Below are positions 28,965-47,942 of a stretch of DNA of 47,942 nt, one piece after another. Each line of letters starts with the position of its first letter. The first letter of the stretch is position 1. Under the pieces are notes generated by a model. It did no database searches. It worked only from the letters and a program-made list of their open reading frames with translations, and was not told where the DNA came from. The translations under genes were made by a program, and so were the position numbers. The DNA comes from a virus. The stretch covers positions 1 to 47,942 of IMG/VR virus record IMGVR_UViG_3300028025_002290. One strand, written 5' to 3'.

Positions 28965-31900
28965 ATGCCCTACGACGAACAAGGTAACTTCTACGGGTCT
29001 AATGAAGACCTTGGCGACTTAAAGGCAAAGTACATAAAACCTGATCCGGTGTCCCAGATACCTGGTCAGGTTGTCTCGCCTAAGCAAGAAGAATCAAAGA
29101 CTCTCCGCGAGCAGGCTGTTTCTGCTTTAATGAAGTACAACCCGCTGATGATGCAAAAATCATTGCAGGATGTGCCAAGGACCTTGGTCGGCGGAGCTTT
29201 ACTTCCTGTCGTTGCTCCTGTTAGCGCTGGCGTCCAATACTTGAATGCCTTGCCTGGTAACCTGCTGCGTCGTTCACGCGGCGAGGAAGAAGTCAAGACT
29301 CCAACAGCAGAAGACCTGATGCGCAAGTATGGGGAAGCAATTGCTCCAAAGACTGAGTTAGGCCGTGATTTTCAAGAGGGTCTTGTCAAGACCATGGACA
29401 CCCTCAAGATACCTGCAGCTTGGCCAATGGTTCCCAATGCCCCTAAGCGCCCAATGCTGACTCCAACAGACGTTCGCGTAGGTGCAGGTCAGATCAAGCA
29501 ACTGGCCAAGGAACTCAAAGAGACTCCACAAGACTTCCAGGCTGCTCAATCTGGCCTCAAACGTCAGAACTTATACGGTGAAGACACCCTTGGTGTCAAG
29601 GCACAGGCGGCCGCAGATTCTTTAGGTGATACCCTTGAACGTCGTCGGGCATCAGATCGTTCTCTAATTCCAGGGGTTCCTGGTGTCCTTACTCCTGAGA
29701 CTAGCATGTACGCTGTACGTCCAAAGGGTTCCAGGCTTGTGCAGCCAAAGGTGCCGGCATCTGCTAAGAACTTCACTCCTTCCTTTAGTGAAATTCCTGA
29801 TTTTGTGGACGACGTCTACGGTAATGTGGAGGCTGGCGAGATACCTCCAACCATGATCATGAGCGAGTACGGTCCAAGGTTCATGAATACCGAAGCAACC
29901 CGAGACTTCAAGGAAGGCGTCTTGGCTCTTGATAGGAAAAAAGCCATGGAGATGTTTCCAGACGCTCCAAGTGAACCCCTGGCTTTGCGGGCCTATGAGA
30001 TCTTGTACAGCGACAGGAACGCAAGGGCAGCAAAAAGCTTAGAGACCATTGAAGAATTCCTGGCTATGCCAGAAAATCAGCGCTTTATTGAGGAAGGTAT
30101 CCCAACCCCAAGCCAGTTTGTTGAGCGCTTTAAAGAAGCAGAGCGTGTTGTCAAAGGACCCTTGGTCAACTACCTCAGCAAAAACGTTGGAGCTGAAGGC
30201 GATCCTACAGTCAAGCTTGCTCGTCAAGGTATTACCTATGAATCTCCTGAGCGCATCAACGAATTGGCGGGGTTTGTCACGCCAACTCCGGGAGGAAGAC
30301 TGGCCGAAACCCGCGTAAAAGCGGGTTTTCCTGCTATGGGTAGTTTCCACGAGGAACGATTGGCCAAAACTGGCGAACTTGACAAACTCAATGAAGAGAT
30401 TGCTGCTTTAGAAGAAGTCCGAACTCCGTTGTTTAACAGGGCTCACGAGGAAGGTATTGATCCGGCGTCAATCCCAGAATACGCGGAGACCACCAATCCA
30501 CTTCGCCAAAAGCTTCGTCAGAGAGAACAGTTGCAAGGTGAACTTGAAAACATCAAGTTGGCCACCGCTGTGGAAAACATAAGCGACTACGCCGTTACAC
30601 CAAAGAGTAAGCTGCAGATGGAAATGGACATCCCATACCAGGAGCGCCAGTTCTTCCCATCTGTTACCAAGGGCGGTGAGAATGAGACCTTCTACACAGT
30701 TGGTAACAGGTCGTTGCTGAACGACATAGGCTATCAGAAGCTTGGAAAAGATTTAGTTGAAGACATCTTGACCGGCAAGGCCGGAGATACCTCTAAGCTT
30801 ACCATTGAGGGCTATATCAGAGACAAAGGCTTGTCTCGTATTGAGGCCGAAAAGGCAGCAAAGGTTCAACAGCAACAGTACCGTCAAAATCTTGAGGGCG
30901 TCTTGCTTAAGCGTCTTCAAGAAGATCCCAACGTCAAGACATTTGGAAATGCTTCAATCATCACGCTCAACAAGGATACTCCTAAAGACGTAGCCTTGCG
31001 TGACGTGAGTACAGACACGGCAATCTTAGATCACTGCGTTGGACAAGGTGGCTCGGCGCCAGAGGGCAGACGCAACCTGTTGACAAACAACCAACAATAC
31101 TACGAACCAATTGTTGACCCAATCACTGGGGAACGCAATAAAAATGCCAAGAGCGATGCCTACAGCAGCTATGTAGACCAGTTAGCCAGTGGCAACGAGT
31201 TGATTAGCGTTCGTGATTCCAGGACTGGATTGCCAGCTGCTACCATCCAACTTTTAACCACTGGAGACCCTGGCAACTTTAGAGTTGGCTATGCTTCAGG
31301 CGCTAAAAACGGCGCAATTGAGCCTCAGTACGTGGACGCCATCAAGCAGTACTTGAACAGCCGGGCTGATTCAATTACAAGCGCTGGAGAAAACTTGTCT
31401 GACAACGCAGGCATCTTTGACTTGGCCAATTCAAGAGGTAGAGACCAGGCCATACGGGCCGCAAACATTCCTGGATCTGGGCGCGGTAAAAAAGCAGATG
31501 AGCTTCAAAGAACGCTGGAGTTTGCAATTCAAAACTCTCCTGACATACGGAGGTTTGTGACTTCTGACGACGTCAAGAAGATCTTTGAAAGCACCTCTAA
31601 CGAAGTGGCCGTTGTCAATCAGCCGTCTGCTGCTCGTCCTACCGGAGTGATGAGGCTACAAGACTATGAAGGCTTTGTTGACGAATTTAATAGCGCCCTT
31701 GAAGCAGCAGTTGAATCCGCAATGGAGAACTCTAACCTTGAGAATCCAAACAGGGTTGAAGGAGCCATGGGCCGCGCAGTGGCAAATATATTTGATAACC
31801 ACTTAAATGACCCAGTAGAGTTTATTCAGGAGCCTGTTGCCCGTTTGCGTCGTGTTGAACGTGACCTTCAAAACGTCATTCAAAACTCTTATGCCCAAAG

Positions 31901-33902
31901 GCGCGATGTTGATACTGAATTGGCCAACGGCTTAGAAGATTTCCTGATTGACGTCAGGGGTCTTCGTGCAAGTATTGAGCGGCGCCTGCAGGCAGAGCAA
32001 GATCGTCCAGCAGAAGATCGTTTTAGCTTGTCTCTTCAGTACAACATACCCCCTGTGACAGTCCTTGAGTTGCAAGCAAGGTTCAGGGCCCCTAATATAA
32101 CTGTTGCCAACTTGAACACAATGCGAGACTACGCTCAAGCAGGGGAGCCTCATACAATTTTTGCAACTTTGCCAGAAGAAAGCCGGGCAGGTGCGGTCAG
32201 AATGATCTCCGATGAGATTGAGCGTCGTCAGCAAGGCGCGGCTCAAAACCAGGTTGCAGCTCCAACCATAGAGGGCTTTACAACTGAAGTTAGACGCCTA
32301 GATGAAGGCGTTGGAGATAGGGTTGCAGGCGTTTTGTACGCCATAAACGAGGCAATCAATATCAATACCCGTCCGGCAGAGTATGCTAGGGCTGTGCTCC
32401 AGGCGGCAGATCAGCAAGGCACAACAGGCACGGTTCAGGACGTTAGTGTTGCGAGCTTCTTGAATCAGTTTGCAAGTCAACTTGAAACAGCCACTCGCCA
32501 AGCTTTTAATGCTCCAGCCAGGAACGAAGTTGCCGTACAAGGCGAGCCAATGCCTGCCATGGGGGCTGATGAATTGCTGCTTGAGCATGGCGACCGCATG
32601 ACCCAGGCCCAACGTAATTGGCTGCAAAACTTTATTCAGAGGTGGGACACTTTTGTCGATGATACTCCTGGTGGAGCCGTATACCGCGACGAACTTGAGC
32701 GGACATTTGATGAATGGTCAAATCGCGAGCGTTTGCAGCCGCGGGCTGAAGAAAATCTTGGCGACTGGGAAGTTGACGAGGCTCATGGTGCAAACAATCG
32801 GGCGTTTGTTGCAGCAGACTTGGCCAATGAGCTTTTCAACATGGACGTCAATACCGGAGGTGTTGCAGATATTCCGGCCATTGAGAACACCATCTTTGCC
32901 CTTCGGAATGGAACGGTTGACCATCGCGACTTTAGAAACCTTCCTGAGGACAGACGTCCTGCTGCAATGAACCTGGTTGCTGATTTCATGCAGGCCATGA
33001 TTGAACAGCCAGAGTTATTGGACCGCCCAGTGTCGGCCAGGGACAGGGAATTGTTGACGATGTTTAATAGTCTTGTCGACGACGCCATTGAAGAAGGAAG
33101 CTTTCCTGCTGGCATGGCAAACAGCGACCTAGCTCAACTTGTGATTGACGACGAGATTGGTGGCCTTGATGATTTAAGCGCAGCTGATCGTAACCGATTA
33201 GTTGAACTCTTAACCCGTCCTGAGCAGGAGGCTCCGCAGGCTTCTGCAAGACAAACGCTCCCAGCCCCTCAGGCTCCTCGGATTCAAGTGCAGGACCCCG
33301 TACCTCGTGAAATGCAGACGCTGAACAGGCAAGATCTGATCCTTAGATTGGGGCCACAAGGTGTTGATGAAGCACAAAGGATCGCGCGGATATACTTCAA
33401 CGACAACCTCTTCAATGAAAATGTGCCGGTTTCAGCCGCGACAAATGCGATCAGGAGCTACAACTTTGGGCCCCATGAAGGACAACAGCCCATGGTGCGT
33501 GAACTTGCAGCACGTGAACTGGAAGAACTTTTTTCAACGGCGCAACAAGATGCAAGTATTCTTGCGAACAGTCTTGATGAAGCTATGTACCAAGACATGG
33601 ATGGTCCAGAAGAAGCTATGCGGGCTGCGGACAGGGATATTTCCTTACTCCGTCGTCATGGCGAGACTGCTTGGGAAGATGTGTTTGGTCCCCTGGCCGA
33701 AGATTACCCTTGGAGTCGGAATACGCAAGAACAGGCCATTCTGTTCTTGCGAGAGATTGCGGATGGCTATAGGCGCCAACGCGACGCGGATAGACCTTTT
33801 GCCAAGGGTGGACCTGTCAAGAAACCTATGATGCCCCCGGTGATCACCAGAAGGCACCCAGAGCTAGCCGAAATGCAATATCGATATGGTGGCATAGTCT
33901 AA
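28965..33902 (+). CDS. Giant internal virion protein, 1645 residues, with PcfJ-like domain
   Basis: This is the largest gene in the window and the last of the late block (gp16 position). The N-terminus holds a short hydrophobic segment (VGGALLPVVAPVSAGVQYLN, about 74-95). At about residues 680-800 there is a PcfJ-like segment: TAILDHCVGQGG (His690, Cys691), YSSYVDQLASGNELISVRDS, LPAATIQLLTTG, then YVDAIKQYLNSR. The rest is helical and charged. The C-terminus (about 1612-1645) carries PFAKGGPVKKPMMPPVITRR and ends RYGGIV. I see no lytic transglycosylase motif, unlike T7 gp16. It is presumably ejected into the host with the DNA; the role of the PcfJ-like part is unknown. Confidence 0.65.
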   Translation: MPYDEQGNFYGSNEDLGDLKAKYIKPDPVSQIPGQVVSPKQEESKTLREQAVSALMKYNPLMMQKSLQDVPRTLVGGALLPVVAPVSAGVQYLNALPGNLLRRSRGEEEVKTPTAEDLMRKYGEAIAPKTELGRDFQEGLVKTMDTLKIPAAWPMVPNAPKRPMLTPTDVRVGAGQIKQLAKELKETPQDFQAAQSGLKRQNLYGEDTLGVKAQAAADSLGDTLERRRASDRSLIPGVPGVLTPETSMYAVRPKGSRLVQPKVPASAKNFTPSFSEIPDFVDDVYGNVEAGEIPPTMIMSEYGPRFMNTEATRDFKEGVLALDRKKAMEMFPDAPSEPLALRAYEILYSDRNARAAKSLETIEEFLAMPENQRFIEEGIPTPSQFVERFKEAERVVKGPLVNYLSKNVGAEGDPTVKLARQGITYESPERINELAGFVTPTPGGRLAETRVKAGFPAMGSFHEERLAKTGELDKLNEEIAALEEVRTPLFNRAHEEGIDPASIPEYAETTNPLRQKLRQREQLQGELENIKLATAVENISDYAVTPKSKLQMEMDIPYQERQFFPSVTKGGENETFYTVGNRSLLNDIGYQKLGKDLVEDILTGKAGDTSKLTIEGYIRDKGLSRIEAEKAAKVQQQQYRQNLEGVLLKRLQEDPNVKTFGNASIITLNKDTPKDVALRDVSTDTAILDHCVGQGGSAPEGRRNLLTNNQQYYEPIVDPITGERNKNAKSDAYSSYVDQLASGNELISVRDSRTGLPAATIQLLTTGDPGNFRVGYASGAKNGAIEPQYVDAIKQYLNSRADSITSAGENLSDNAGIFDLANSRGRDQAIRAANIPGSGRGKKADELQRTLEFAIQNSPDIRRFVTSDDVKKIFESTSNEVAVVNQPSAARPTGVMRLQDYEGFVDEFNSALEAAVESAMENSNLENPNRVEGAMGRAVANIFDNHLNDPVEFIQEPVARLRRVERDLQNVIQNSYAQRRDVDTELANGLEDFLIDVRGLRASIERRLQAEQDRPAEDRFSLSLQYNIPPVTVLELQARFRAPNITVANLNTMRDYAQAGEPHTIFATLPEESRAGAVRMISDEIERRQQGAAQNQVAAPTIEGFTTEVRRLDEGVGDRVAGVLYAINEAININTRPAEYARAVLQAADQQGTTGTVQDVSVASFLNQFASQLETATRQAFNAPARNEVAVQGEPMPAMGADELLLEHGDRMTQAQRNWLQNFIQRWDTFVDDTPGGAVYRDELERTFDEWSNRERLQPRAEENLGDWEVDEAHGANNRAFVAADLANELFNMDVNTGGVADIPAIENTIFALRNGTVDHRDFRNLPEDRRPAAMNLVADFMQAMIEQPELLDRPVSARDRELLTMFNSLVDDAIEEGSFPAGMANSDLAQLVIDDEIGGLDDLSAADRNRLVELLTRPEQEAPQASARQTLPAPQAPRIQVQDPVPREMQTLNRQDLILRLGPQGVDEAQRIARIYFNDNLFNENVPVSAATNAIRSYNFGPHEGQQPMVRELAARELEELFSTAQQDASILANSLDEAMYQDMDGPEEAMRAADRDISLLRRHGETAWEDVFGPLAEDYPWSRNTQEQAILFLREIADGYRRQRDADRPFAKGGPVKKPMMPPVITRRHPELAEMQYRYGGIV

Positions 33903-33952
33903 GGCTTCCGGCTCCTCTATCAAAATCCCTATAGATGATATTTTTACCCATA

Positions 33953-33980
33953 ACAAAGAGGATCAATACTCTCTGTTTTT
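33953..33980 (+). terminator. Probable terminator at the end of the late operon
   Basis: ACAAAGAG 33953-33960 pairs with CTCTCTGT 33969-33976 (7 of 8 pairs) around an 8-base loop, followed by a T-run ending at 33980. It lies 50 bases after the giant virion gene stop and before the early control region, exactly where transcription units should separate. The stem is AT-rich and modest in strength. Confidence 0.55.
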
Positions 33981-34211
33981 ACTTCGCGGAGACTTAGTAA
34001 AGTCGAGCGAGCGAATAGAATATAGTTAGTTAAATGAACTAGTACACTCTGTTATGGCTCTAGAATCACTCTATAGGGTTTTTGGCCGTACCTGGTATAA
34101 GTCCTAGCAATTATTTTAATAAAACTGCGCGCTGCGTGGTTTTACGCGCTAGAATCAATCCCATGCACAGCAATCCTGCTGGCATAAACAGAAAGAAGAA
34201 AGGTATTTATC
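33981..34211 (+). promoter_or_regulatory. Control region upstream of the DUF932 gene, copy A
   Basis: This 231-base non-coding stretch is AT-rich. A hairpin GACTT-AGTA-AAGTC lies about 33991-34004. TAGAAT (-10-like) occurs at 34016, 34061 and 34150. GTATAAGTCCTAG at 34095-34107 and a 24-base block at 34149-34172 (starts CTAGAATCAATCCCATG) recur with identical 54-base spacing at 47809 and 47863. GCGCGC lies exactly 17 bases upstream of the TAGAAT in both copies, where a -35 box would be, so an unusual sigma factor, an activator or a phage polymerase may be involved. The leader GAAAGAAGAAAGGT (34191-34204) carries the ribosome site. Confidence 0.65.
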
Positions 34212-35198
34212 ATGTCACATGAAGTTGAAACGATGGCTTACGCCAATGAGACCCCTTGGCACGGCCTTGGTACCCCTGTCGCTGACAACTTGACGCCCAC
34301 CCAGATGTTAGACGCAGCTGGACTCAATTGGCAAGTCAAGAAGAAGGCCTTAGTGGTTGACGAACTAGACCACACTCTGAGCAGCCACTTTGCATTGGTG
34401 CGCGACACAGACAGCAAGATCCTTGGCATCTGCGGCAACGAGTACACGCCCACGCAAAATCAAGACGTCTTTGAGTTCTTTGACAAGTTCTGCAAAGCCG
34501 GCGACATGAAGATGGAGACTGCCGGTTCACTCCATGGCGGTAAGCGCGTTTGGGGCCTTGCAAAGATCAACGGCGGCTTTATGCTTGGCGGCAAAGACGA
34601 AGTCGAAGGCTACATCTTGCTTGACAATCCACACATCTGGGGACGCAGCTTGCAGATCTTGTTTACGCCAATCCGCGTAGTTTGCAACAACACCTTGACT
34701 GCTGCCTTAAACAATAACTCGAACAAAGACAACACCTTCCGCATGTCGCACGATCGCGCATTTGACGATCAGATCAAGCAAACTGCGGCAGAAAAAGTCG
34801 GTCTGGCCATGAAGTCCTTGAACGTGTTCAAGCAGCAAGCCGAGTTCTTGTCTAAGAAACGTGCAAAAGATCAACAAGTCATGGAATTCTTTTCCAAGCT
34901 TGTCAACCCTGACCAGTATCAAGCAGCCTTGGTTGCTTCTGATGACGGTCTAGTCAATCGCGCAGATCTTGGCCGCACGGTCAACCGTCTGCTCGACATC
35001 GTGCACACCCAACCAGGAGCCGATCTGAAGACTTCAGCCGGTACTTGGTGGGGCGCATTCAACGCCGTGACGTACTACTACGACCACGTCGCTGGAACTG
35101 ATCAAGACAAGCGTCTGACAAGCGCGTGGTTTGGTTCAGCAGCAACACGTAAACGCCAAGCACTTGACCTCGCCGTCGAGTTCGCTGAAGCCGCGTAA
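34212..35198 (+). CDS. DUF932 family protein
   Basis: The 328-residue protein matches the DUF932/phage-plasmid-like (TIGR03299) family: an N-terminal ANETPWHGLGTPVADNLTPT, GLNWQVKKKALVVD, ILGICGNEYTPTQNQDVFEF, then GGKRVWGLAKING, a central LQILFTPIRVVCNNTLTAAL with the family's RVVCxNT, and a C-terminal TSAGTWWGAFNAVTYYYDH. Proteins of this group are common near replication and recombination genes on phages and plasmids, but their reaction is unknown. It is the first gene after control region A, so probably one of the earliest expressed. AAAGGTATTTATC precedes the ATG. Confidence 0.85.
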   Translation: MSHEVETMAYANETPWHGLGTPVADNLTPTQMLDAAGLNWQVKKKALVVDELDHTLSSHFALVRDTDSKILGICGNEYTPTQNQDVFEFFDKFCKAGDMKMETAGSLHGGKRVWGLAKINGGFMLGGKDEVEGYILLDNPHIWGRSLQILFTPIRVVCNNTLTAALNNNSNKDNTFRMSHDRAFDDQIKQTAAEKVGLAMKSLNVFKQQAEFLSKKRAKDQQVMEFFSKLVNPDQYQAALVASDDGLVNRADLGRTVNRLLDIVHTQPGADLKTSAGTWWGAFNAVTYYYDHVAGTDQDKRLTSAWFGSAATRKRQALDLAVEFAEAA

Positions 35199-35202
35199 AC
35201 CC

Positions 35203-35218
35203 AGGGGCTTCGGCCCCT
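35203..35218 (+). other. UUCG-capped intergenic hairpin
   Basis: AGGGGC 35203-35208 and GCCCCT 35213-35218 enclose a TTCG loop, nearly the same element as at 5354-5369. It follows the DUF932 stop and has no T-run. It may protect or process the mRNA, giving the first gene a separate level from those downstream. Confidence 0.65.
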
Positions 35219-35242
35219 ACCTTCCAACCTTAGGAGAAAATT

Positions 35243-36097
35243 ATGGCAAACGCCAGAGGAAAGTCCATTGACAATACCCACCTGAGCATCGATCAGGCGG
35301 AAGAGCGCGGCTTCATTCACCGTGACTACATCGCCCACTGTCTTCGCTGGACCCACGTGGCCAAGTGGATGGGCAAGCCTGCAAACCGCAAGGACTGCAA
35401 CCTGCTTGACATTGGCTGCGGCAAGGACGTACCGTTGGCCAAGATGCTCATGACAAGCCGTATGGCATCAGACGGTCTGAATTACATCGGCATTGACTAC
35501 AACAAGCTCGAGATGCCAAAAGCGTTTGAGAATACTAAGTTCAAGCCAACTCTGATCGGTAACGTTGCGTTCCCTGACGTCCAGTTGCCAGTTGAGAAGT
35601 TCAACGTCATCACTTGCTTTGAGGTCCTTGAGCACGTGGAACCGCTGCATGCCTACAAGATGCTGGAAGGTATCCGTGATCGCCTTGACAAGGACGGCAT
35701 GGCCTTCGTCAGCACACCAGTCTATGACCCACAAGTCGGTGCAGCAGACAACCACGTCAACGAGATGACTTATGAGGTCATGCAAGTCATGCTGCACAAG
35801 GTGGGCTTGGAAGTTGACGACCACTTTGGCACTTTTGCCTCAATTAGGGACTACAAGCAAGTAGCCGAAAAGGAAGACATCGATGGAGTGTTCAATCGCT
35901 TGCGTGATTACTACGACAGCAATTATCTGGCAACTATCTTTGCCCCGCTTTACCCACAACATTCACGCAACGTGCTCTGGCGAGTCAAACTGCCGAAGAA
36001 CACGGAATTCTTTGAACCACCAAAGTTTGCAGAACTTACTAAGCCACTCTCAAGCAGCGAAGCCTGGCAGCCCTTGTTTGATTACTTGGGAGAGTAA
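35243..36097 (+). CDS. Class I SAM-dependent methyltransferase
   Basis: The 284-residue protein has a Rossmann methyltransferase core: motif I NLLDIGCGKDVPLAKML (about 54-70), motif II YIGIDYNK, and a motif III/IV region FNVITCFEVLEHVEPLHAYK, with GMAFVSTPVYDP after it. The absence of a DPPY or PCQ motif argues against a standard DNA adenine or cytosine-C5 methyltransferase; FEVLEHV is typical of small-molecule, sugar or lipid methyltransferases. The C-terminal half (YPQHSRNVLWRVKLP) is of unknown type. It begins the nucleotide-metabolism block. The substrate could be a modified nucleotide or a small molecule. ATG preceded by TTAGGAGAAAATT. Confidence 0.75.
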   Translation: MANARGKSIDNTHLSIDQAEERGFIHRDYIAHCLRWTHVAKWMGKPANRKDCNLLDIGCGKDVPLAKMLMTSRMASDGLNYIGIDYNKLEMPKAFENTKFKPTLIGNVAFPDVQLPVEKFNVITCFEVLEHVEPLHAYKMLEGIRDRLDKDGMAFVSTPVYDPQVGAADNHVNEMTYEVMQVMLHKVGLEVDDHFGTFASIRDYKQVAEKEDIDGVFNRLRDYYDSNYLATIFAPLYPQHSRNVLWRVKLPKNTEFFEPPKFAELTKPLSSSEAWQPLFDYLGE

Positions 36098-36099
36098 GG

Positions 36100-36489
36100 A
36101 TGGACTTATTTCAAATGGTGGCCGACTTTCACAAGAAGTTCGGGCTGGAACCAACTGACGGTCCTGACTTTCCAAGGCACGAGATCGTTCGACTCAAGAG
36201 CCAACACCTGCAAGAAGAGCTGGATGAGATCTTTAAGGCTGGCGAGGAAAAAGACCTTGAGGAGTATTTTGACGGCCTGATTGACCTGATCTATGTAGCA
36301 CTCGGTGCTGCTTATCTTGCCAATCTGCCGTTCAATCAGGGGTTTATCCGGGTGCATCAAGCGAACATGACAAAGATTCGCGCTTTAAGGCAAGAAGATA
36401 GCAAACGCGGGTCCACTTATGATATAGTGAAACCTGCAGGATTCGTGGCCCCAACGCTAACGGACCTCATCAGAAAGGAGAAAGAATGA
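36100..36489 (+). CDS. MazG-like nucleotide pyrophosphohydrolase
   Basis: The 129-residue all-helical protein has MazG/PRA-PH superfamily metal-binding motifs: QEELDEIFKAGEEKDLEEYF followed by DGLIDLIYVALGAAYLANLP, that is an EExxE-type helix and a downstream ExxD-type helix. These enzymes hydrolyse NTPs or dNTPs to monophosphates plus pyrophosphate, and phages use them to adjust dNTP pools or alarmone levels. It is followed, with a 4-base overlap, by a nucleotide kinase, suggesting linked nucleotide handling. The C-terminal KRGSTYDIVKPAGFVAPTL is common to phage members of this type. Confidence 0.75.
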   Translation: MDLFQMVADFHKKFGLEPTDGPDFPRHEIVRLKSQHLQEELDEIFKAGEEKDLEEYFDGLIDLIYVALGAAYLANLPFNQGFIRVHQANMTKIRALRQEDSKRGSTYDIVKPAGFVAPTLTDLIRKEKE

Positions 36490-37478
36490 AAGGCATTATT
36501 GTCATTGATGGTTGCGATGGTACAGGCAAGACCACCCTTGCTAAAGCTATCTGCGATCGTTTTGATGGCGTCTACATTCACAACACATATCGCTGGCCAA
36601 CTAAGATGCCGCTGTATCACACAGCAGCCTTGCATCGTGCATTAAAGCTTGCACGTACGCGCTTGGTAGTCATAGATCGTTTGTGGATGAGTGAAGCCAT
36701 CTATGCAGACGTGTATCGTGGTGGCAGCCCTTGGCCTCACATGGGTCGCACGATGGACCGCATTATCCGCAAGGTCGGTGGCGTCTATATCTTGGCTCAA
36801 TCACCTGCTAACCATGCAGAAAAGTTCGAGCAACTGAAGTCAGAACGCGAAGAGATGTATGACAACGTTGACCCTGTACGTGAGCGCTTTGACATGCTGT
36901 TTCAAGGTGGCTTTGCTGGCCATGACCGCGACTATGTTCAGCAGCTTTCTGTCTTTGGCATGCGCAGCAGAGATGATGTGCTGCCCTACAGGTATGACGT
37001 TGAAGGCCGCGACCTTGATGTCTACATTGGCATGGTCTACTCTGTCCTTGAATCGCGCTGGATGAAGCAATACGAGCCTGCTCTGCACCTGCATACCAAA
37101 AACTTTGCAGGTCACTTGCACGAAGCAAAGATCATCTTTGTTGGCGACAAGGCCAATAGCAAGTTTCGCGCTGTCAGCTGGCCTTTTTACGACTTTGCCA
37201 ATTGCAGCGAGTTCTTTGCAGATGTGTTGCATGAGCTTAACTTTGATGAGACACGTGCTGTCTACATCAACGCGCACGATGGCAATGGTCCGCTGTATGT
37301 TAATGACTGCTTGCGCGCCAAGCCTTACATGAGGGTCATTTGCCTTGGCAATGGAGCTTACGACACCATGACTGAATTCACCCGCAGGATTCACAAGGTC
37401 ATGCACCCATCTTACGCAAAGCGTTTTAACAAGCGCTCTGAGTTTTTACAAGAACTTAAGGAGGTCCTCAATGGTTAA
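36486..37478 (+). CDS. Nucleotide (dNMP) kinase fused to a UDG-like domain
   Basis: Residues 1-200 form a P-loop kinase. Walker A is IDGCDGTGKTTLAK (8-20), followed by LVVIDRLWMSEAIYADVYRG (a DRxxxSExxY motif typical of thymidylate or deoxynucleoside kinases) and a QLKSEREEMYDN region. Residues about 215-312 form a second domain: IIFVGDKANSKFRAVSWPFY, CSEFFADVLHELNF, AVYINAHDGNG, KPYMRVICLGNGAYDTM, and KVMHPSYAKRF with an HPS motif at 307-309. This resembles the uracil-DNA glycosylase superfamily (family 4/5 'G-E-P-G...PF', 'HPS'), though the catalytic N-terminal motif is altered. The kinase would phosphorylate dNMPs, possibly a modified pyrimidine. It overlaps the ThyA-like gene by 8 bases. 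Confidence 0.7.
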   Translation: MKGIIVIDGCDGTGKTTLAKAICDRFDGVYIHNTYRWPTKMPLYHTAALHRALKLARTRLVVIDRLWMSEAIYADVYRGGSPWPHMGRTMDRIIRKVGGVYILAQSPANHAEKFEQLKSEREEMYDNVDPVRERFDMLFQGGFAGHDRDYVQQLSVFGMRSRDDVLPYRYDVEGRDLDVYIGMVYSVLESRWMKQYEPALHLHTKNFAGHLHEAKIIFVGDKANSKFRAVSWPFYDFANCSEFFADVLHELNFDETRAVYINAHDGNGPLYVNDCLRAKPYMRVICLGNGAYDTMTEFTRRIHKVMHPSYAKRFNKRSEFLQELKEVLNG

Positions 37479-38265
37479 TACAACCAACATGAATTGGCAA
37501 GGTCTGCTAGATGTCATCATGACTCATGGAGACCAGACAAGCCCAAGGGGTAAGAACACAAAGGAGCTGCTTGGCTACAAGTCAATGATTGACATGAACC
37601 AGCCTGTTCTCACAATCAAAGAACGCAAGCTTGGCTATAAGTTTATGGCTGCCGAAGCTGCATGGATCATGTCAGGTGACAACCGTGTCAGCACGATTGC
37701 CCCGTACAGCAGGGCCATCAGTGCATTTAGCGATGACGGCATCTTGTTCTTTGGAGCCTACGGTCCACAGATCAGAGACCAGCTTGGCCATGTCATCCAA
37801 ACATTAGCCGATGATACAGATTCGCGTCAAGCGGTCATGACCATCTGGAGGCCTAATCCTAGGGCCAGCAAAGACATACCTTGCACCATCAGCTGCCAAT
37901 TCATGATCCGCAAAGGTTACCTTTATTGCTTCATGAACATGCGTTCATCTGATGCTTGGCTCGGTGTTCCTTACGACTGGTTCAACTTCAGCATGCTGTC
38001 AGCAGGCGTTGCGTTGATGTTGCGTGAGAAGGGTATCCACGTCAAGCTTGGTGCCCTGCACTTCTACGCAGCCAGCCAGCACCTGTATGAAGAGAACTGG
38101 TACAAGGTTGATGCTTGCTTGAATGGCGAGATCCTTGGCGACTATGAGCCTTTTAACCTTGACTACTTCAACGACTACGACCACCTCGTCAATCATTTGT
38201 GGGCCTTGGCCAGTGGCCATGTGCACAACGGATTCTTGAAAGAAGTCTCATCATGGAAAGAATAA
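37471..38265 (+). CDS. ThyA-family enzyme, dCMP hydroxymethylase-like
   Basis: The 264-residue enzyme is a thymidylate synthase homologue. The catalytic Cys138 lies in DIPCTISCQFMIRKGYLYCF, followed by MRSSDAWLGVPYDWFNFSML. In true ThyA the residue after Cys is His and the position in 'PFN' is Asn, which selects dUMP. Here they are Thr139 and Asp169. T4 dCMP hydroxymethylase also has Asp at the Asn position, so this enzyme likely acts on dCMP and may form a hydroxymethyl or methyl pyrimidine. The nucleotide-binding HFYAASQHLYEEN is present. A perfect AAGGAGGT site precedes ATG 37471. Genes for a kinase and dCMP deaminase flank it. Confidence 0.8.
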   Translation: MVNTTNMNWQGLLDVIMTHGDQTSPRGKNTKELLGYKSMIDMNQPVLTIKERKLGYKFMAAEAAWIMSGDNRVSTIAPYSRAISAFSDDGILFFGAYGPQIRDQLGHVIQTLADDTDSRQAVMTIWRPNPRASKDIPCTISCQFMIRKGYLYCFMNMRSSDAWLGVPYDWFNFSMLSAGVALMLREKGIHVKLGALHFYAASQHLYEENWYKVDACLNGEILGDYEPFNLDYFNDYDHLVNHLWALASGHVHNGFLKEVSSWKE

Positions 38266-38759
38266 GCAAAGATGAATACTTTTCGCAACTGGCTCTACTC
38301 GTTAGCCGACGAGGTACATGCGCAAGGCGGCTTGTGGGCTGTGTCCTTGTATCCAATCGTGGGCACGTTCTTGCTACTGGTTACAACGGGGTGCCTGCTG
38401 GTCATCAGCATTGCATTGATGTTAACTGTCCCGGTGCTAGTCTTCCTTCGGGGACTGGTCTGGATCTATGTGAAGCTATCCACGCGGAACAAAACGCACT
38501 CCTCCAATGCCGGGATGTAAACCAGATCGACACGGCTTACGTGACTGCCATGCCATGCATGACTTGCACAAAGCTGCTGCTTAACACAAGCTGCAAACGC
38601 ATCATCTACACCGAACCTTATCCACACGAAGAAGCAAGACAACTCTGGACAAAAAATGGACGCATCATCTTATCAGCCGCCGAAGCACTTTCCAAACCTA
38701 TTTCTGGCAAAGCGTATAGCAATCGACTGCGAGACGCGCGACCCGAACTTAATGACTAA
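38253..38759 (+). CDS. dCMP deaminase
   Basis: I start at ATG 38253 (168 residues), within the last codons of the ThyA-like gene; the upstream in-frame start at 38199 would overlap further. Zinc-dependent cytidine-deaminase motifs are complete: HAEQNAL (His77, catalytic Glu79) and PCMTC (Cys102, Cys105). An N-terminal GTCARRLVGCVLVSNRGHVL strand and TGYNGVPAGHQHC, with extra Cys/His that may bind the second zinc of T4-type dCMP deaminases, also occur. It converts dCMP to dUMP. Paired with a ThyA homologue that seems to prefer dCMP, it would balance dUMP and dCMP use. Its last 104 bases overlap the polymerase gene in another frame. Confidence 0.85.
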   Translation: MERISKDEYFSQLALLVSRRGTCARRLVGCVLVSNRGHVLATGYNGVPAGHQHCIDVNCPGASLPSGTGLDLCEAIHAEQNALLQCRDVNQIDTAYVTAMPCMTCTKLLLNTSCKRIIYTEPYPHEEARQLWTKNGRIILSAAEALSKPISGKAYSNRLRDARPELND

Positions 38760-40518
38760 AGGACCAGGTGGAGTACGCGGAGATGGCTACATCGTTGGAT
38801 TCTCAGTTGCCACGGATGACGGCTTTGCTGAGTACTATCCAGTGCGCCATGCAGCAGGCGGGAACCTTAACCCTGACAACGCATTTGCTTGGTTACGCGA
38901 CATGCTGAAGACCGACATCCCAAAGATAGGAGCCAACATCCCATACGACTTGGAATGGCTGCTGACAGAAGGTGTCATCGTTGGTGGACCAAAGTACGAC
39001 GTACAGATTGCCGAGCCGCTGCTTGATGAAGACCGTATCACCTACAAGCTTGATGCGTTGGCCCAGGCTTACCTTGGCGAGTCCAAGGACGAGACTGAGC
39101 TTATTGCAGCAGCTGTCAGGCGTGGCATCCATCCAAGCAAGGTCAAGGAAAACCTCTGGCAGTTTCATGCAGGTGAGGTAGCGCCTTATGGACGCAAGGA
39201 TGCAGACTTGCCAATTCGCATCTTTGCCCAACAAGAAGTCTTGCTGCACGACGAGAAGCTGTGGGAAGTCTTTGAGATGGAGACGCAGCTGGTCGACGTC
39301 ATAGTGGCCATGCGCCAGAAAGGTGTACCTGTGGACCTTGATCGGGCCCACAAAGTCAAGGCACAACTACTTGATGAGCAGGGCCAGCTTATGGAGCAAC
39401 TCAAGAAGGTTGCTGAGCGGGATGTAGACATCTGGTCTGGTGATGACATACAGGCAGCCAGTGACGCATTGAAGCTGGATTACCCAAAGACTGAGAAGGG
39501 GAATGCTAGTTTTCCCAGTGAGTTTCTTGAAGCTAGTGAACATGAATTTTTCTCCTTAATTTCGAAGGTCCGGAAGCTTGACCGGGCCGGTGGAGTATTT
39601 ATCGACAGCAAGATCATTCAGATGGAAAAAGATGGAAAAATTTACCCGACTTTCAGACAAGTCCGCGACGACCGCGGGGGCACAAAGTCCGGGCGCTTTG
39701 CGTCGGCTAACCCGAACATGCAACAGGTACCAGCTAGGGATCCAGTTCTGGCTCCTCTCATCAGAAGCATCTTTGTACCTGAAGAGGGTTGCCAATGGGG
39801 CGTCTTCGACTACTCGCAGCAAGAGCCTCGTGTCACGGTTCACTACAGTTATCTTCGTAGCTTTCCTGGTGCTGAGACTGCGCGCAACCGGTACCTTGAT
39901 GATCCCGATACTGACTACCATCAACTCGTCGCTGATATGGCTGGAATCACGCGTAAGAACGCGAAGACCTTAAACCTAGGACTGGCCTACGGTATGGGGG
40001 CTGCCAAGGCCGCTACTCAACTGGGCCTGCCGCCAGCAGAAGCTAAGCGCGTCTACGAGCAATACCACGAGAACGTGCCCTTCATCAAGGCGCTTGGCGA
40101 GGAATGCACGCGGATTGCGACCAACAGGGGCTACGTCAAGACGTTCCTTGGTAGACGCAGACGGTTCCAGTTGTTTGGACCACCTAAATACAGCCCTGGT
40201 TTGATCCCATTGAAGAAAGACTTGGCAGAAGAAAAGTATGGCCTGCCGTTGAAGCGTTATTTTGTCCACAAGGCAATGAACGCGGTCATCCAGGGGTCAT
40301 CGGCAGACATGATCAAGATGGCCATGATCAACTTGTTTAAAAAAGGCGAAGTTCCACATCTGACTATTCACGATGAATTGGACTTCAGTGTACGTGACTT
40401 AGATCATGCCCGCATGATTCGACAGGAGATGCTTACATGCGTGGACTTGGTAGTGCCATTAAAAGTAGACTGCGAGCTTGGACCCAGCTGGGGAGAAGCG
40501 GTCGAGGTGAAGCTATGA
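38656..40518 (+). CDS. Family A DNA polymerase with 3'-5' exonuclease
   Basis: The 620-residue enzyme has an N-terminal DEDD exonuclease (Exo I IAIDCETRD with Asp24/Glu26; Exo II IGANIPYDLEWLL; Exo III YGRKDADLPIRI) and a family A polymerase domain. Motif A reads FDYSQQEPRVT (Asp385), unlike the usual DYSQIELR. Motif B is RKNAKTLNLGLAYGMG, with Leu441 at the E. coli Phe762 position. Motif C is HDELDF (His572-Asp573). It replicates the phage genome. The start is inside the dCMP deaminase gene, because the exonuclease motif begins at residue 21 and no later start keeps it. There is no 5' nuclease domain, as in most phage enzymes. Confidence 0.9.
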   Translation: MDASSYQPPKHFPNLFLAKRIAIDCETRDPNLMTKGPGGVRGDGYIVGFSVATDDGFAEYYPVRHAAGGNLNPDNAFAWLRDMLKTDIPKIGANIPYDLEWLLTEGVIVGGPKYDVQIAEPLLDEDRITYKLDALAQAYLGESKDETELIAAAVRRGIHPSKVKENLWQFHAGEVAPYGRKDADLPIRIFAQQEVLLHDEKLWEVFEMETQLVDVIVAMRQKGVPVDLDRAHKVKAQLLDEQGQLMEQLKKVAERDVDIWSGDDIQAASDALKLDYPKTEKGNASFPSEFLEASEHEFFSLISKVRKLDRAGGVFIDSKIIQMEKDGKIYPTFRQVRDDRGGTKSGRFASANPNMQQVPARDPVLAPLIRSIFVPEEGCQWGVFDYSQQEPRVTVHYSYLRSFPGAETARNRYLDDPDTDYHQLVADMAGITRKNAKTLNLGLAYGMGAAKAATQLGLPPAEAKRVYEQYHENVPFIKALGEECTRIATNRGYVKTFLGRRRRFQLFGPPKYSPGLIPLKKDLAEEKYGLPLKRYFVHKAMNAVIQGSSADMIKMAMINLFKKGEVPHLTIHDELDFSVRDLDHARMIRQEMLTCVDLVVPLKVDCELGPSWGEAVEVKL

Positions 40519-40922
40519 AAGAGAGCCAATTCTGGGCGCTTGTCAAAGGCAAGCTGCCAGGACATGCTGAACGCATGGAGAACGCCTTGACAAGGGGGAC
40601 TCCTGACGTAAACATGTGCCACGAAGCCATAGAGCTATGGCTAGAGCTCAAGATTTTGGATGCTAAGGGTAGCTGTCAGCTTAGGCCAGAACAGGTCCTC
40701 TGGCATCGTAAGAGGCAAGAGCACGGGGGCCGCGTGTTTGTACTGGCTAGAAACGAAGAGACGCTCAAGATCCTTCAAGTCCAGCGAGACATGGAGATGT
40801 TTGAGATTTGGGCTTGTACAAAGCCTTTTGACTGGAATAACATGAATGAATTGCTTTTTAATGTGCCACCCTTTTGTACGGAATACACGATCCGTCATCT
40901 GCAATACGGAGGAAAACAATGA
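40515..40922 (+). CDS. VRR-NUC-type PD-(D/E)xK nuclease
   Basis: I chose ATG 40515 (ATGA overlap with the polymerase), giving 135 residues. The nuclease core is MENALTRGTPDVNMC followed by AIELWLELKILDAKGSCQLR, with candidate catalytic Asp31, Glu44 and Lys46, then LRPEQVLWHRKRQEHGGRVF and VLARNEETL. This matches the VRR-NUC family of small structure-specific nucleases, found beside replication genes in phages; a role in resolving branched DNA or processing replication intermediates is likely. The C-terminus (WNNMNELLFNVPPFCTEYTI) is less typical. Confidence 0.75.
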   Translation: MKESQFWALVKGKLPGHAERMENALTRGTPDVNMCHEAIELWLELKILDAKGSCQLRPEQVLWHRKRQEHGGRVFVLARNEETLKILQVQRDMEMFEIWACTKPFDWNNMNELLFNVPPFCTEYTIRHLQYGGKQ

Positions 40923-41236
40923 CTGTCTACGTTGTACAAGATTCGCCTAAGTTTAACCTCTTGCCTGCAGCAGAGTATGGTGAACTACAAACATTGTTGC
41001 CACCAGGGCAAGTGATGATGGCGACATCGCCAACCATCCGCGTCTTACGTGACAAGCTCAGAAGTTTTTCAGACAGCGATTATCTCTTGGCCATTGGTGA
41101 CCCCATAGCCATTGGCATGTCTGTTGCAATAGCTGCCGGGTTCAATCGCGGCGTTATCAAGATGCTCAAGTGGGATCGCCAAGAGCATCGTTACTACGCC
41201 ATTGAGGCGGATCTTACAGGAGTGAAAAATGCTTGA
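40919..41236 (+). CDS. Conserved hypothetical protein of the replication block
   Basis: The start at ATG 40919 is supported by ATACGGAGGAAAACA and gives 105 residues. The sequence TVYVVQDSPKFNLLPAAEYG, LRDKLRSFSDSDYLLAIGDP, AIGMSVAIAAGFNRGVIKML, KWDRQEHRYYAIEADL is a familiar pattern of a small phage protein encoded between polymerase and single-strand-binding genes. It has no membrane segment and no clear catalytic motif. The function is unknown; a replication-related role is suggested only by position. Confidence 0.7.
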   Translation: MTVYVVQDSPKFNLLPAAEYGELQTLLPPGQVMMATSPTIRVLRDKLRSFSDSDYLLAIGDPIAIGMSVAIAAGFNRGVIKMLKWDRQEHRYYAIEADLTGVKNA

Positions 41237-41777
41237 AGAGGAAATGATGGCTGACAGTCAGATGCCAACTGACCAAGGCTTAGGCAAGATCAGTACCCTT
41301 GCAGAACGGTACACAGATCTTGATGAGGAGATCAAAGAAGCGGAGACGCGTCTGAAGGTCTTAAAAGAACAGGCCAGGGAGATTGCCGAGAAGCAATTGC
41401 CCGATGCTATGGCAGAGATCGGCGTTGCTAAGTTTACGCTTACAGACGGTAGTGAAGTGACCGTCAAACCGTACTACAGCGCCAAGATCAGTGACGAGAA
41501 ACGTGAGGAGTGCTTTGGCTGGTTGCAAGACCACGGCCACGAGGCGCTAATAAAAGACGAAGTCGTCCTGACATTCAATCGCGGTGAGCACGAGAAGGCC
41601 GAAGAATTTAAAGCCCAGCTGGAAGAGCAGGGTCTGGATTATTCTGGCAAGATGGGTGTTCATCCTCAAACTTTGACAGCTTTCGTCAAAGAGCAAGTGG
41701 AAAGTGGTGCCGAATTTCCGCTTGAACTTTTCAACGTGTACATCGGCCAAATTGCTAAAGTTAAAAGGAGCAAATGA
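41229..41777 (+). CDS. Helical hypothetical protein of the replication block
   Basis: The longest frame (182 residues) starts at ATG 41229, but ATG 41244 or 41247 (MADSQM...), preceded by GAAGAGGAA, may be the true start. An N-terminal coiled coil (LDEEIKEAETRLKVLKEQAR) precedes a beta segment VAKFTLTDGSEVTVKPYYSA, a helical region, and a C-terminal MGVHPQTLTAFVKEQVESGA. It sits between the nuclease-linked gene and the SSB-like gene, with 4-base overlap to the latter. Similar proteins occur in many phage replication blocks; function unknown. Confidence 0.65.
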   Translation: MLEEEMMADSQMPTDQGLGKISTLAERYTDLDEEIKEAETRLKVLKEQAREIAEKQLPDAMAEIGVAKFTLTDGSEVTVKPYYSAKISDEKREECFGWLQDHGHEALIKDEVVLTFNRGEHEKAEEFKAQLEEQGLDYSGKMGVHPQTLTAFVKEQVESGAEFPLELFNVYIGQIAKVKRSK

Positions 41778-42544
41778 TGGTAAAGAAAACTGAAGTGGCT
41801 GTAGTCCAGCCTGGCGCCGTAGTGGCATTCGCAGACGACATGATGGCTGATGCCGGTCTCGGTTTCGAGAACGTATCGGCAAACGATGTCGCTATCCCGT
41901 ACCTCAAGGTGCTGCAGGCATTGTCTCCTGAACTTCGCGGAGTCACCAAGGTTGCTGGTGCTGAAGAAGGTTTGATCATCAACACCGTCACGGGTGTCTT
42001 GATGAAAGAAGTCCGCGTCATCCCATGCGCATTTAAGAAGAGTTACGTCGAGTGGACTCCTCGTGAGGCAGGCGGCGGCTTGGTGAAAGAGCACACGGAT
42101 GAAAAGATCCTTGACAAGTGCAAGAAGAACGAACGCAATCAAGACGTGTTAGCTAACGGGAACTTGATTGTCACGACAGCTTATCACTACGTGTTGGTGT
42201 TGTCTGAAAGCGGTTTTGAACGCGCGTTGATCGCCATGTCATCTACACAACTGAAGAAGTCACGCCGCTGGCTTGGTCAGATGATGGCGCTGCAAGTCAA
42301 GATTGGTGAGAAGTCATTCACCCCTCCACCGTTTAGCCATAGCTATCATTTGGGTACAGGTATGGAGACTAAGGATGCCAACAGCTGGTATGGTTGGTTG
42401 ATTAACGATCCCTCGATGGTGCAAGACAAGGGGATCTACGAGGCGGCCAAGAAGTTTGGTTTAGATGTAACTGCTGGCTTGGTAAAAGTTGCCGAGCCGC
42501 CTGCTGAAGGTGTTGTTCAAGGTGAAGACGATGTCCCATATTAA
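41774..42544 (+). CDS. Single-stranded DNA-binding-like protein
   Basis: The 256-residue protein begins with a flexible region, then VAIPYLKVLQALSPELRGVT, GLIINTVTGVLMKEVRVIPC, a central LIVTTAYHYVLVLSESGFER-type beta region, and SSTQLKKSRRWLGQMMALQV. The C-terminus is acidic and ends GEDDVPY, resembling the DDDIPF tip of bacterial SSB that recruits partner proteins. Location among polymerase, nuclease and primase genes and this tip support ssDNA binding, though no OB-fold motif is certain. AAAAGGAGCAA precedes the start; ATG 41777 is an equally possible start codon. Confidence 0.55.
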   Translation: MMVKKTEVAVVQPGAVVAFADDMMADAGLGFENVSANDVAIPYLKVLQALSPELRGVTKVAGAEEGLIINTVTGVLMKEVRVIPCAFKKSYVEWTPREAGGGLVKEHTDEKILDKCKKNERNQDVLANGNLIVTTAYHYVLVLSESGFERALIAMSSTQLKKSRRWLGQMMALQVKIGEKSFTPPPFSHSYHLGTGMETKDANSWYGWLINDPSMVQDKGIYEAAKKFGLDVTAGLVKVAEPPAEGVVQGEDDVPY

Positions 42545-42761
42545 GGACATCTTTCCGATGCTGGGTGCTGACATGGGTAAGTCTGATGGCCGAAATCCAT
42601 CGGCTACCAAGAAGGGACCTGGGCGCAAGCCCGTTGACGGACACAAGAAAGGCAAAGCTAAACGCACTGCCTTTCAAAAGGCCGCAGCAAAGGTCAAGGT
42701 AGCAGCACAGACAGCCAACGTGACTAACACGCCGCTTAAGGCGGCGGCAAGGGGGAGTTGA
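42531..42761 (+). CDS. Small basic protein
   Basis: The start at ATG 42531, preceded by AAGGTGAAGACG, lies inside the end of the SSB-like gene and gives 76 residues. The N-terminal 20 residues may fold (HIKDIFPMLGADMGKSDGRN), and the rest is Lys/Ala/Gly-rich and disordered (KKGPGRKPVDGHKKGKAKRT). Basic charge suggests DNA or RNA contact. It is translationally linked to the SSB-like gene and ends one base before the Tad2-like gene. No known family. Confidence 0.55.
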   Translation: MSHIKDIFPMLGADMGKSDGRNPSATKKGPGRKPVDGHKKGKAKRTAFQKAAAKVKVAAQTANVTNTPLKAAARGS

Positions 42762-42762
42762 T

Positions 42763-43062
42763 ATGAATTTCGGTGACGCAATTGACGCTTTGAAAAAGGG
42801 CTTTAGGGTTACTCGTGAAGGTTGGAATGGTAAGGGCATGTTTCTTATCTTGGCAGGTGGTTACACAGTCAAGAAAGCGGATCTTCGTCCTAACAGTCCA
42901 ATCGACGCGGAATTCCTTGAATCAAGGGGCCTTGAAGAGATGGAGATTCTGCCGCATATTGATATGTGGACAGTTAATGCGCATGGTCGTCAAGCTTATT
43001 TAGCTGGATGGCTTGCGTCTCAGACGGACATGCTGTCGGAAGACTGGATGATCGTCGAATAA
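42763..43062 (+). CDS. tad2: Tad2 (DUF2829) anti-Thoeris protein homologue
   Basis: The 99-residue protein is a clear DUF2829/Tad2 match. The N-terminus is MNFGDAIDALKKGFRVTREG followed by WNGKGMFLIL, and the C-terminus is PHIDMWTVNAHGRQAYLAGW then LASQTDMLSEDWMIVE, the family's GWLASQxDMLxxDW signature. Tad2 proteins form sponges that bind the cyclic ADP-ribose-type signal made by Thoeris ThsB, preventing activation of the effector ThsA. Length is typical of the family. It lies in the early block, where an anti-defence gene should be. Confirmation needs conservation of the ligand pocket; some DUF2829 members may bind other molecules. GGGGGAGTTGAT precedes the ATG. Confidence 0.8.
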   Translation: MNFGDAIDALKKGFRVTREGWNGKGMFLILAGGYTVKKADLRPNSPIDAEFLESRGLEEMEILPHIDMWTVNAHGRQAYLAGWLASQTDMLSEDWMIVE

Positions 43063-43066
43063 GTAT

Positions 43067-43086
43067 GGGGCGGCTTTGGCCGCTCC
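43067..43086 (+). other. Intergenic hairpin after the Tad2 gene
   Basis: GGGGCGGC 43067-43074 and GCCGCTCC 43079-43086 form an 8-pair stem (one G-U) around a TTTG loop. No T-run follows. Like the two UUCG hairpins, it lies between a stop and the next start, so it may serve mRNA stability or partial termination. Confidence 0.6.
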
Positions 43087-43112
43087 CTCTATCAACCAAA
43101 CGAGAAAGAATT

Positions 43113-47561: not shown

Positions 47562-47746
47562 TCCTTGATCCGAAGGAAGAAGGACATAAAGATGTCGTGG
47601 GACATTGTGCGCAGGGCGCTGCCAGGAAAGAACTGGTCTGGCCAGCCCTGTTCCTTGTCCTTAAGGATATACAGGCGCATACCGTTGTCGTACTCAAGGC
47701 TCAAGCCGTTCTCTTGGGCGATCTTTTTTGCTATAGCTACACGCAT
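47558..47746 (-). CDS. Small leftward gene, unknown function
   Basis: This is the only convincing minus-strand gene. Its ATG (complement of 47744-47746) is preceded on that strand by GAAAGGAACTAACC, a good ribosome site with 7-base spacing. The 62-residue product (VAIAKKIAQENGLSLEYDNG, then LYILKDKEQGWPDQFFPGSA) folds plausibly as helix-beta-beta-helix and has no membrane segment. It converges with the SNF2 gene and diverges from the gene at 47920, so control region B serves both directions. It might be an early regulator, but no DNA-binding motif is evident. Confidence 0.65.
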   Translation of the reverse strand: MRVAIAKKIAQENGLSLEYDNGMRLYILKDKEQGWPDQFFPGSALRTMSHDIFMSFFLRIKD

Positions 47747-47919
47747 GGTTAGTTCCTTTCAAGCCACATTTTACTACGTACTGCAGCAGTGCGCACAATT
47801 AAATTCTAGTATAAGTCCTAGTAAATATTTTGCAGAGAATGCGCGCAGTGCGCAGTTTTGCACTAGAATCAATCCCATGCACAGCATGTCGCGGTGCTAA
47901 GAAAGAAGAAAGGTTCATC
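47747..47919 (+). promoter_or_regulatory. Divergent control region, copy B
   Basis: The 173-base stretch contains GTATAAGTCCTAG at 47809-47821 and the 24-base block at 47863-47886, spaced exactly as in copy A (54 bases start to start). TAGAAT at 47864-47869 is preceded at 17 bases by GCGCGC (47841-47846). GCAGTGCGCA occurs twice (about 47786-47795 and 47845-47854), and TGCGC-GCAGT-GCGCA is an inverted repeat, so a repressor or activator may bind here. The leader GAAAGAAGAAAGGT (47901-47914) matches copy A. Confidence 0.65.
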
Positions 47920-47942
47920 ATGGAAATCACTGTACGCATCAC
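47920..47942 (+). CDS. 5' end of a gene cut by the window (partial)
   Basis: ATG 47920 follows the conserved leader with AAAGG seven bases upstream. Only MEITVRI is visible. It is under control region B, which repeats the signals of the DUF932 gene, so it is probably expressed at the same early time. No identity can be given. Confidence 0.6.

Follow-up and report, generated by a model that had tools for sequence, protein, structure and literature searches.

A phage operon that very probably puts hydroxymethylcytosine in place of cytosine, and a methyltransferase that suggests a cytosine modification not yet described

The DNA analyzed here, which will be called the window, is 47,942 nt long and corresponds to positions 1-47,942 of the IMG/VR virus record IMGVR_UViG_3300028025_002290. 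It is a linear virus record, so that genes missing from it count for little, and no megablast match was obtained when positions 30000-47942 were compared with phage records. Five genes on the plus strand form an operon in the order methyltransferase, MazG, kinase fused to a uracil-DNA glycosylase (UDG)-fold domain, hydroxymethylase and dCMP deaminase. The first gene (35243-36097) encodes a SAM-dependent class I methyltransferase (PF13489, 1.7e-12), for which tailoring of 5-hydroxymethylcytosine (5hmC), at the level of the base, the nucleotide or the DNA, is predicted from fold and synteny. It is followed by a nucleotide pyrophosphohydrolase of the MazG/PRA-PH type (36100-36489; PF01503, 1.9e-11, and phrog_671, 1.7e-25), a two-domain protein of 330 aa (36486-37478), a thymidylate synthase homologue of the dCMP hydroxymethylase type (37471-38265; 264 aa, assigned by alignment, Pfam and relatives), and a dCMP deaminase (38253-38759; PF00383, 9.5e-21, and phrog_174, 1.1e-38), whose ATG at 38253 overlaps the stop of the hydroxymethylase gene. 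A first-pass annotation of the sequence had placed a nucleotide kinase and a MazG-like protein beside the synthase homologue, and the Pfam searches bore this out; it had mentioned neither the UDG-fold domain on the kinase nor the deaminase directly downstream. Elsewhere in the window we observed a GroES-like co-chaperonin (540-959; PF00166, 4e-12), a beta-ketoacyl synthase-like protein among the structural genes (20578-21708; PF02801, 1e-17, and PF00109, 2e-8), three genes in a row that match the Pam3 phage gp32, gp33 and gp34 families (40874-42544; PF23992, PF23984 and PF23977), a Tad2-like domain of the Thoeris anti-defence family (42763-43062; PF11195, 1.8e-22), and, in the replication module, an archaeo-eukaryotic-type primase of the TOTE conflict system (43008-44636; PF22548, 3.8e-20).

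The 37471-38265 protein belongs to PF00303 (2.8e-23 in the Pfam search), and its nearest solved structure by sequence was MilA, the mildiomycin CMP 5-hydroxymethylase (1.5e-24, versus 1e-14 for ThyA). The residues were compared in an alignment with T4 gp42, E. coli ThyA, an SPO1-like dUMP hydroxymethylase and MilA. The first-pass annotation had read Cys138 as followed by Thr, and the key Asn of the 'PFN' motif as replaced by Asp169, as in T4 dCMP hydroxymethylase; both readings were confirmed by the alignment and by 85 relatives. Its likeness to T4 held for the active-site residues, but among solved structures MilA is a nearer relative than the T4 enzyme. The codons for D135-I-P-C138-T139 (37873-37887, plus strand) specify the nucleophile, the Thr that replaces ThyA His147, and, three residues before Cys138, an Asp at the place of ThyA Leu143; the T4 equivalent of this Asp, Asp145, activates the water that ends as the hydroxyl (PMC6400193). 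The codon for D169 (37975-37977, plus strand) corresponds to T4 Asp179 and E. coli Asn177; an Asp at this position gives preference to cytosine over uracil (PMC6400193, PMC8670742), and T4 Asp179 both selects and protonates cytosine (PMC6400193). At Cys-3, Cys, Cys+1 and the 177 position the window protein thus carries D/C/T/D, the same letters as T4 gp42, whereas ThyA carries L/C/H/N and the SPO1-like enzyme D/C/N/N. It is also the same as T4 gp42 at E60, Y96, R123, D145, C148, T149, S169 and D179 of the latter, and it lacks the C-terminal tail of ThyA. MilA shares the D-x-x-C-T motif and the cytosine-selecting Asp, but uses Ala176/Lys133 for ribose, whereas the window protein keeps S159/R119, the Ser/Arg pair of the enzymes that use deoxyribose (PMC5175136).

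In the 85 relatives, which are about 29-96% identical, E62, Y97, R119, D135, C138, S159 and D169 were each found in 85/85, and position 139 was Thr in 81 and Ser in 4. The active-site pattern is therefore not due to chance, but the loci share descent, so that these counts overstate their independence. In the MetaGPA study, changes at positions 147 and 177 were the top two markers of cytosine-modified contigs (PMC8670742). The protein meets the residue criteria for a dCMP hydroxymethylase of the T4 gp42 type (the nucleophilic Cys, the equivalents of Glu60, Tyr96 and Arg123, Asp at the ThyA Asn177 position, Asp at Cys-3, and the deoxyribose Ser/Arg), and it fails as a ThyA (D169, T139, D135 and no tail, instead of Asn177, His147, Leu143 and a tail), as an SPO1-type dUMP hydroxymethylase (no Asn at the 177 position or after the catalytic Cys) and as a CMP hydroxymethylase of the MilA/BcmA kind (S159/R119 instead of Ala176/Lys133). 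Membership of the T4 gp42 clade also failed, because gp42 and its orthologues split off separately in the tree (100/99); this tree has long branches, which leaves the deeper placement unsure. The protein very probably works like a dCMP hydroxymethylase, although we do not file it as a gp42 orthologue, and the formation of hydroxymethyl-dCMP (hmdCMP) is inferred.

The neighborhood of the gene was followed in a first IMG/VR scan with the hydroxymethylase, from which 80 loci were kept; two further scans with divergent hydroxymethylases added one new contig. At least 3.3 kb of upstream sequence was available in 77 loci, counting the IMG/VR loci and five annotated phages together. The methyltransferase was present in 59 of the 77 and was accompanied by the fused kinase in 53 of these 59, and all five genes were found in the same order in Stenotrophomonas phage AXL3, Pseudoxanthomonas phage PW916 and the metagenomic phage ctUtU524. 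In the Pelagibacter podophages HTVC119P and HTVC200P (loci L004 and L005) the hydroxymethylase is accompanied by a kinase of one domain alone, with no MazG, methyltransferase or deaminase nearby. The 18 loci without the methyltransferase had a beta-glucosyltransferase (five loci, about three of them distinct), a protein of the carbamoyltransferase family (three), a PLP-dependent enzyme (three) or none of these (seven), and in 0/77 loci did two tailoring types occur together. Two of the carbamoyltransferases (L047 and L063; PF16861 and PF02543) lie immediately 5' of MazG, i.e., at the usual place of the methyltransferase, and in L073 a PF16861 match occupies the same slot; the family includes a biochemically demonstrated 5hmC carbamoyltransferase (PMC8670742). 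The glucosyltransferase is of the T4 type (PF09198, down to 5e-24; 29-30% identity to T4 BGT in blastp, E 1e-33 to 1e-36) and is located between the hydroxymethylase and the deaminase. Both beta-glucosyltransferase and 5hmC carbamoyltransferase act on 5hmC, and from their presence in operons that lack the methyltransferase it may be inferred that hydroxymethylcytosine is what the hydroxymethylase produces and what the methyltransferase acts upon. Furthermore, in the hydroxymethylase tree these lineages are interspersed among the methyltransferase-bearing ones; from this nesting we conclude that swaps of the tailoring gene have happened. The PLP-dependent enzyme (PF00291/phrog_7093) was observed 5' of the kinase-UDG gene in three loci, all without the methyltransferase (L062:4063-4986, L067:4131-5033 and L069:3694-4659), and may represent a fourth kind of tailoring of hydroxymethylcytosine, one of the amino-acid type.

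The same domains were described in MetaGPA, where TS, PRA-PH and dCMP deaminase domains co-occur in cytosine-modified contigs (PMC8670742). PF00303 with Asp177 and a changed position 147, PF01503, PF00383 and PF14437 are common to both sets, and the PF16861 match in three relatives of the window operon is a further likeness; the difference is that here a methyltransferase fills the slot, and neither it nor the kinase or the glycosylase is found in the main text of PMC8670742.

AXL3 carries the five genes as gp27-gp31, with identities to the window proteins of about 51% for the hydroxymethylase, 33% for the methyltransferase and 25% for the kinase. Of 37 restriction enzymes applied to its DNA, just two, TasI (AATT) and Tru1I (TTAA), were able to cut, and the 35 enzymes that did not cut all have G/C in their sites (PMC7504290). 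The AXL3 authors annotate a thymidylate pathway and give no cause for the resistance (PMC7504290). Such a digestion cannot separate modified C from modified G. As read in the AXL3 and PW916 papers, the synthase homologue would be an ordinary thymidylate synthase that makes dTMP, with the deaminase and the kinase as its dTMP pathway, and PF00303 membership, the database labels and the adjoining dCMP deaminase and thymidylate-kinase-like domain all fit this; we nevertheless regard it as very improbable, because Asn177, His147, Leu143 and the tail of ThyA are all replaced and the changes are kept in the 85 relatives, because hmC-type glucosyl- and carbamoyltransferases sit in operons of relatives, and because AXL3 and PW916 have a separate ThyX. 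As AXL3 also encodes ThyX, its gp28 need not make dTMP. ThyX was present in 7/50 records of relatives, but was absent from a search of the window, so that a dTMP source of this phage's own is not shown.

Equally hard to sustain is a dUMP hydroxymethylase in a phage with modified thymine derived from 5hmdU, as carried by SPO1, ViI and M6. The PW916 gene is annotated as 'deoxyuridylate hydroxymethyltransferase', and the Asp at Cys-3 is common to the SPO1-like enzyme; however, the latter has Asn both at 177 and after the Cys, and at these two positions the window protein differs from it and matches the T4 enzyme. The digestion of AXL3 DNA, moreover, worked at sites made of A and T alone and failed at those with G/C, and relatives carry a T4-type glucosyltransferase. 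Only marginally less remote is a dCMP methylase that would replace cytosine with 5-methylcytosine (5mC), which is contained in the DNA of Xanthomonas phage XP12. In the literature as cited in PMC8670742, Asn177Asp alone is described as letting ThyA methylate dCMP; against this, the water-activating Asp at Cys-3 of the T4 enzyme is conserved without exception in the window protein and its relatives but has no counterpart in ThyA, and the glucosyl- and carbamoyltransferases of sister operons require a hydroxyl. The residues, the conservation of the operon, the 5hmC enzymes of relatives and the AXL3 resistance (PMC7504290) thus support the earlier suggestion that cytosine is modified in this phage, and the operon very probably puts hydroxymethylcytosine in its place. 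This prediction rests on sequence, and the base modification itself has not been shown: we came across neither mass spectrometry nor an enzyme assay for any member of the group. As a whole, we give the replacement of genomic cytosine by a modified cytosine a probability of roughly 80%.

The kinase gene encodes two domains, both of them covered by an AlphaFold model with a pLDDT of 92.5. The N-terminal one (residues 1-200; 36486-37085, plus strand) is a P-loop nucleotide kinase (PF02223, 2.9e-5) that resembled thymidylate kinases and YorR in the fold search and is presumed to be an hmdCMP kinase; in a sequence comparison with T4 gp1, no kinship was seen beyond the P-loop. The C-terminal one (residues 212-330; 37119-37475, plus strand) has the UDG fold, with 1l9g, a UDG, as the top Foldseek match (2.4e-5) and UdgX also matched, and PF03167 (UDG) was detected at 0.004 in the window protein and at 1.9e-5 in one relative. 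The UDG motif residues are kept (D/E221 and P233 in 39/39, N262 in 37/39, H307 in 36/39), so that by fold and motif the domain is placed in the UDG superfamily. Its presence tracks the methyltransferase, with 53 loci that have both and 4 that have the domain without the methyltransferase (Fisher 1e-7, the loci not being independent). Brig3, an enzyme of the UDG superfamily, excises 5hmC, and the domain is like Brig1/Brig3 (PMC13160076) in fold and motif residues; the difference is that here it is phage-encoded and joined to a nucleotide kinase. Its probable task, which is no more than a guess, is to check for a wrong pyrimidine or to remove it, with the excision activity being an inference.

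With the T4 gp42 pathway the window shares the superfamily, the catalytic and specificity residues and a dCMP deaminase (T4 cd), and the kinase (T4 gp1) and pyrophosphohydrolase (gp56) follow the same logic, T4-type beta-glucosyltransferase being found in some relatives. It differs from T4 in that its hydroxymethylase is a separate lineage, its operon is compact, a methyltransferase replaces the glucosyltransferase, the kinase is fused to the UDG-fold domain, and neither the kinase nor MazG is detectably related to its T4 counterpart. In particular, a sequence comparison of the MazG-like protein with the gp56 dCTPase gave no real similarity, and its presumed role in clearing unmodified dCTP is inferred from family and synteny, without a sequence link to gp56.

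The AlphaFold model of the 35243-36097 methyltransferase (pLDDT 88) had small-molecule methyltransferases as its nearest folds, a type that serves many substrates. An identity as a HEN1-type metal-dependent 2'-O-methyltransferase was considered on weak PDB matches and dropped, because its FEVLEH motif, which is widespread in class I methyltransferases, is not specific and the fold search favored others. A reciprocal IMG/VR scan with the methyltransferase alignment yielded 295 relatives, of which the best 80 were kept; 64 of these had at least 3.3 kb of downstream sequence, and among them 47 have a hydroxymethylase of the window type. In 14 of the other 17 a T4 gp42 orthologue lies upstream (37-52% identical to T4 gp42, active-site residues intact), with a gap to the methyltransferase of 16 bases in the closest cases. 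In L146 the hydroxymethylase was found across the end of the contig, and L118 and L138 have less than 400 bases of upstream sequence. The genetic tie to a dCMP hydroxymethylase expected of a 5hmC-tailoring enzyme is thus met, the exceptions being contig ends or permutation. A scan of bacterial genomes showed the methyltransferase to be very rare there, with four convincing matches. L178 lies in a cluster with a kinase and a hydroxymethylase, L179 shares its contig with a fragment of a hydroxymethylase, L176 is at the edge of a contig, and the MAG that contains L177 encodes, at another place, a protein with the D/CT/D signature of hydroxymethylases. By eye, genes beside the gp42 orthologue, methyltransferase and dCMP deaminase in L130 (3787-5606) and L154 (2972-4749) have starts that resemble those of a UDP-glucose dehydrogenase and of a sugar-nucleotide epimerase, and a start like that of a cytidylyltransferase lies upstream; also by eye, L146:6135-7762, between the methyltransferase and MazG, encodes one protein whose motif NPPCAPWS is like that of C5-cytosine DNA methyltransferases and another that is possibly a second methyltransferase.

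The proposal that this enzyme 'could act further' on the cytosine was strengthened by its exchange with glucosyl- and carbamoyltransferases and by its pairing with T4 gp42 orthologues. It remains a real possibility, if not the one we prefer, that cytosine is 5hmC and the methyltransferase targets N4, or RNA, protein or a small metabolite, rather than the hydroxyl: its fold is of the broad small-molecule type, and 7/77 loci have the hydroxymethylase without a recognized tailoring gene. Such a target is argued against by the methyltransferase never occurring together with a glucosyl- or carbamoyltransferase, by its taking the carbamoyltransferase position, and by its accompanying two separate hydroxymethylase lineages. 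Capping of 5hmC by this enzyme, perhaps to 5-methoxymethylcytosine, is somewhat favored; the transfer is inferred and the methyl acceptor has not been determined.

The pathway that we propose would begin with the conversion of dCMP into 5-hydroxymethyl-dCMP by the 37471-38265 protein, with methylene-tetrahydrofolate and water, as inferred from the invariant active-site residues; this chemistry, with incorporation of the product as 5hmC, is considered highly likely. From family and synteny, the kinase domain would then phosphorylate the product towards hmdCTP, the MazG-like enzyme would keep the level of unmodified dCTP down, and the deaminase would set the balance between dCMP and dUMP, so that the polymerase could incorporate 5hmC. 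Finally, the methyltransferase would cap the hydroxymethyl group, for which O-methylation to 5-methoxymethylcytosine is the simplest route, and would do the protective job of the T4 beta-glucosyltransferase or the 5hmC carbamoyltransferase; this last step is drawn from the observed slot replacement and the pairing with two hydroxymethylase lineages. Only tentatively do we extend this to widespread phages with methyl-capped 5hmC (e.g., 5-methoxymethylcytosine), in which the methyltransferase substitutes for glucosyl- or carbamoyltransferase and the kinase-UDG protein polices the nucleotide pool.

Cytosine hydroxymethylation by such enzymes is already known from T4 and MetaGPA. The methyltransferase as an alternative 5hmC tailoring and the kinase-UDG fusion appear to be new, in that they were not found in the open-access literature, where we also found no account of the AXL3 resistance and no methoxymethylcytosine or variants of it. 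In the host, 5hmC is a target of type IV restriction enzymes and of glycosylases such as Brig3, and it is for this reason that the protection of 5hmC matters. The present analysis offers a specific and testable account of the restriction resistance of AXL3, ties two hydroxymethylase lineages to a single unstudied methyltransferase family (295 IMG/VR relatives), and predicts a DNA base that was not found in that literature. The methyltransferase suggests a cytosine modification not yet described and is a candidate enzyme for the chemical marking of 5hmC in DNA; if the prediction is true, methylation would be a third chemistry that protects 5hmC, beside glycosylation and carbamoylation.
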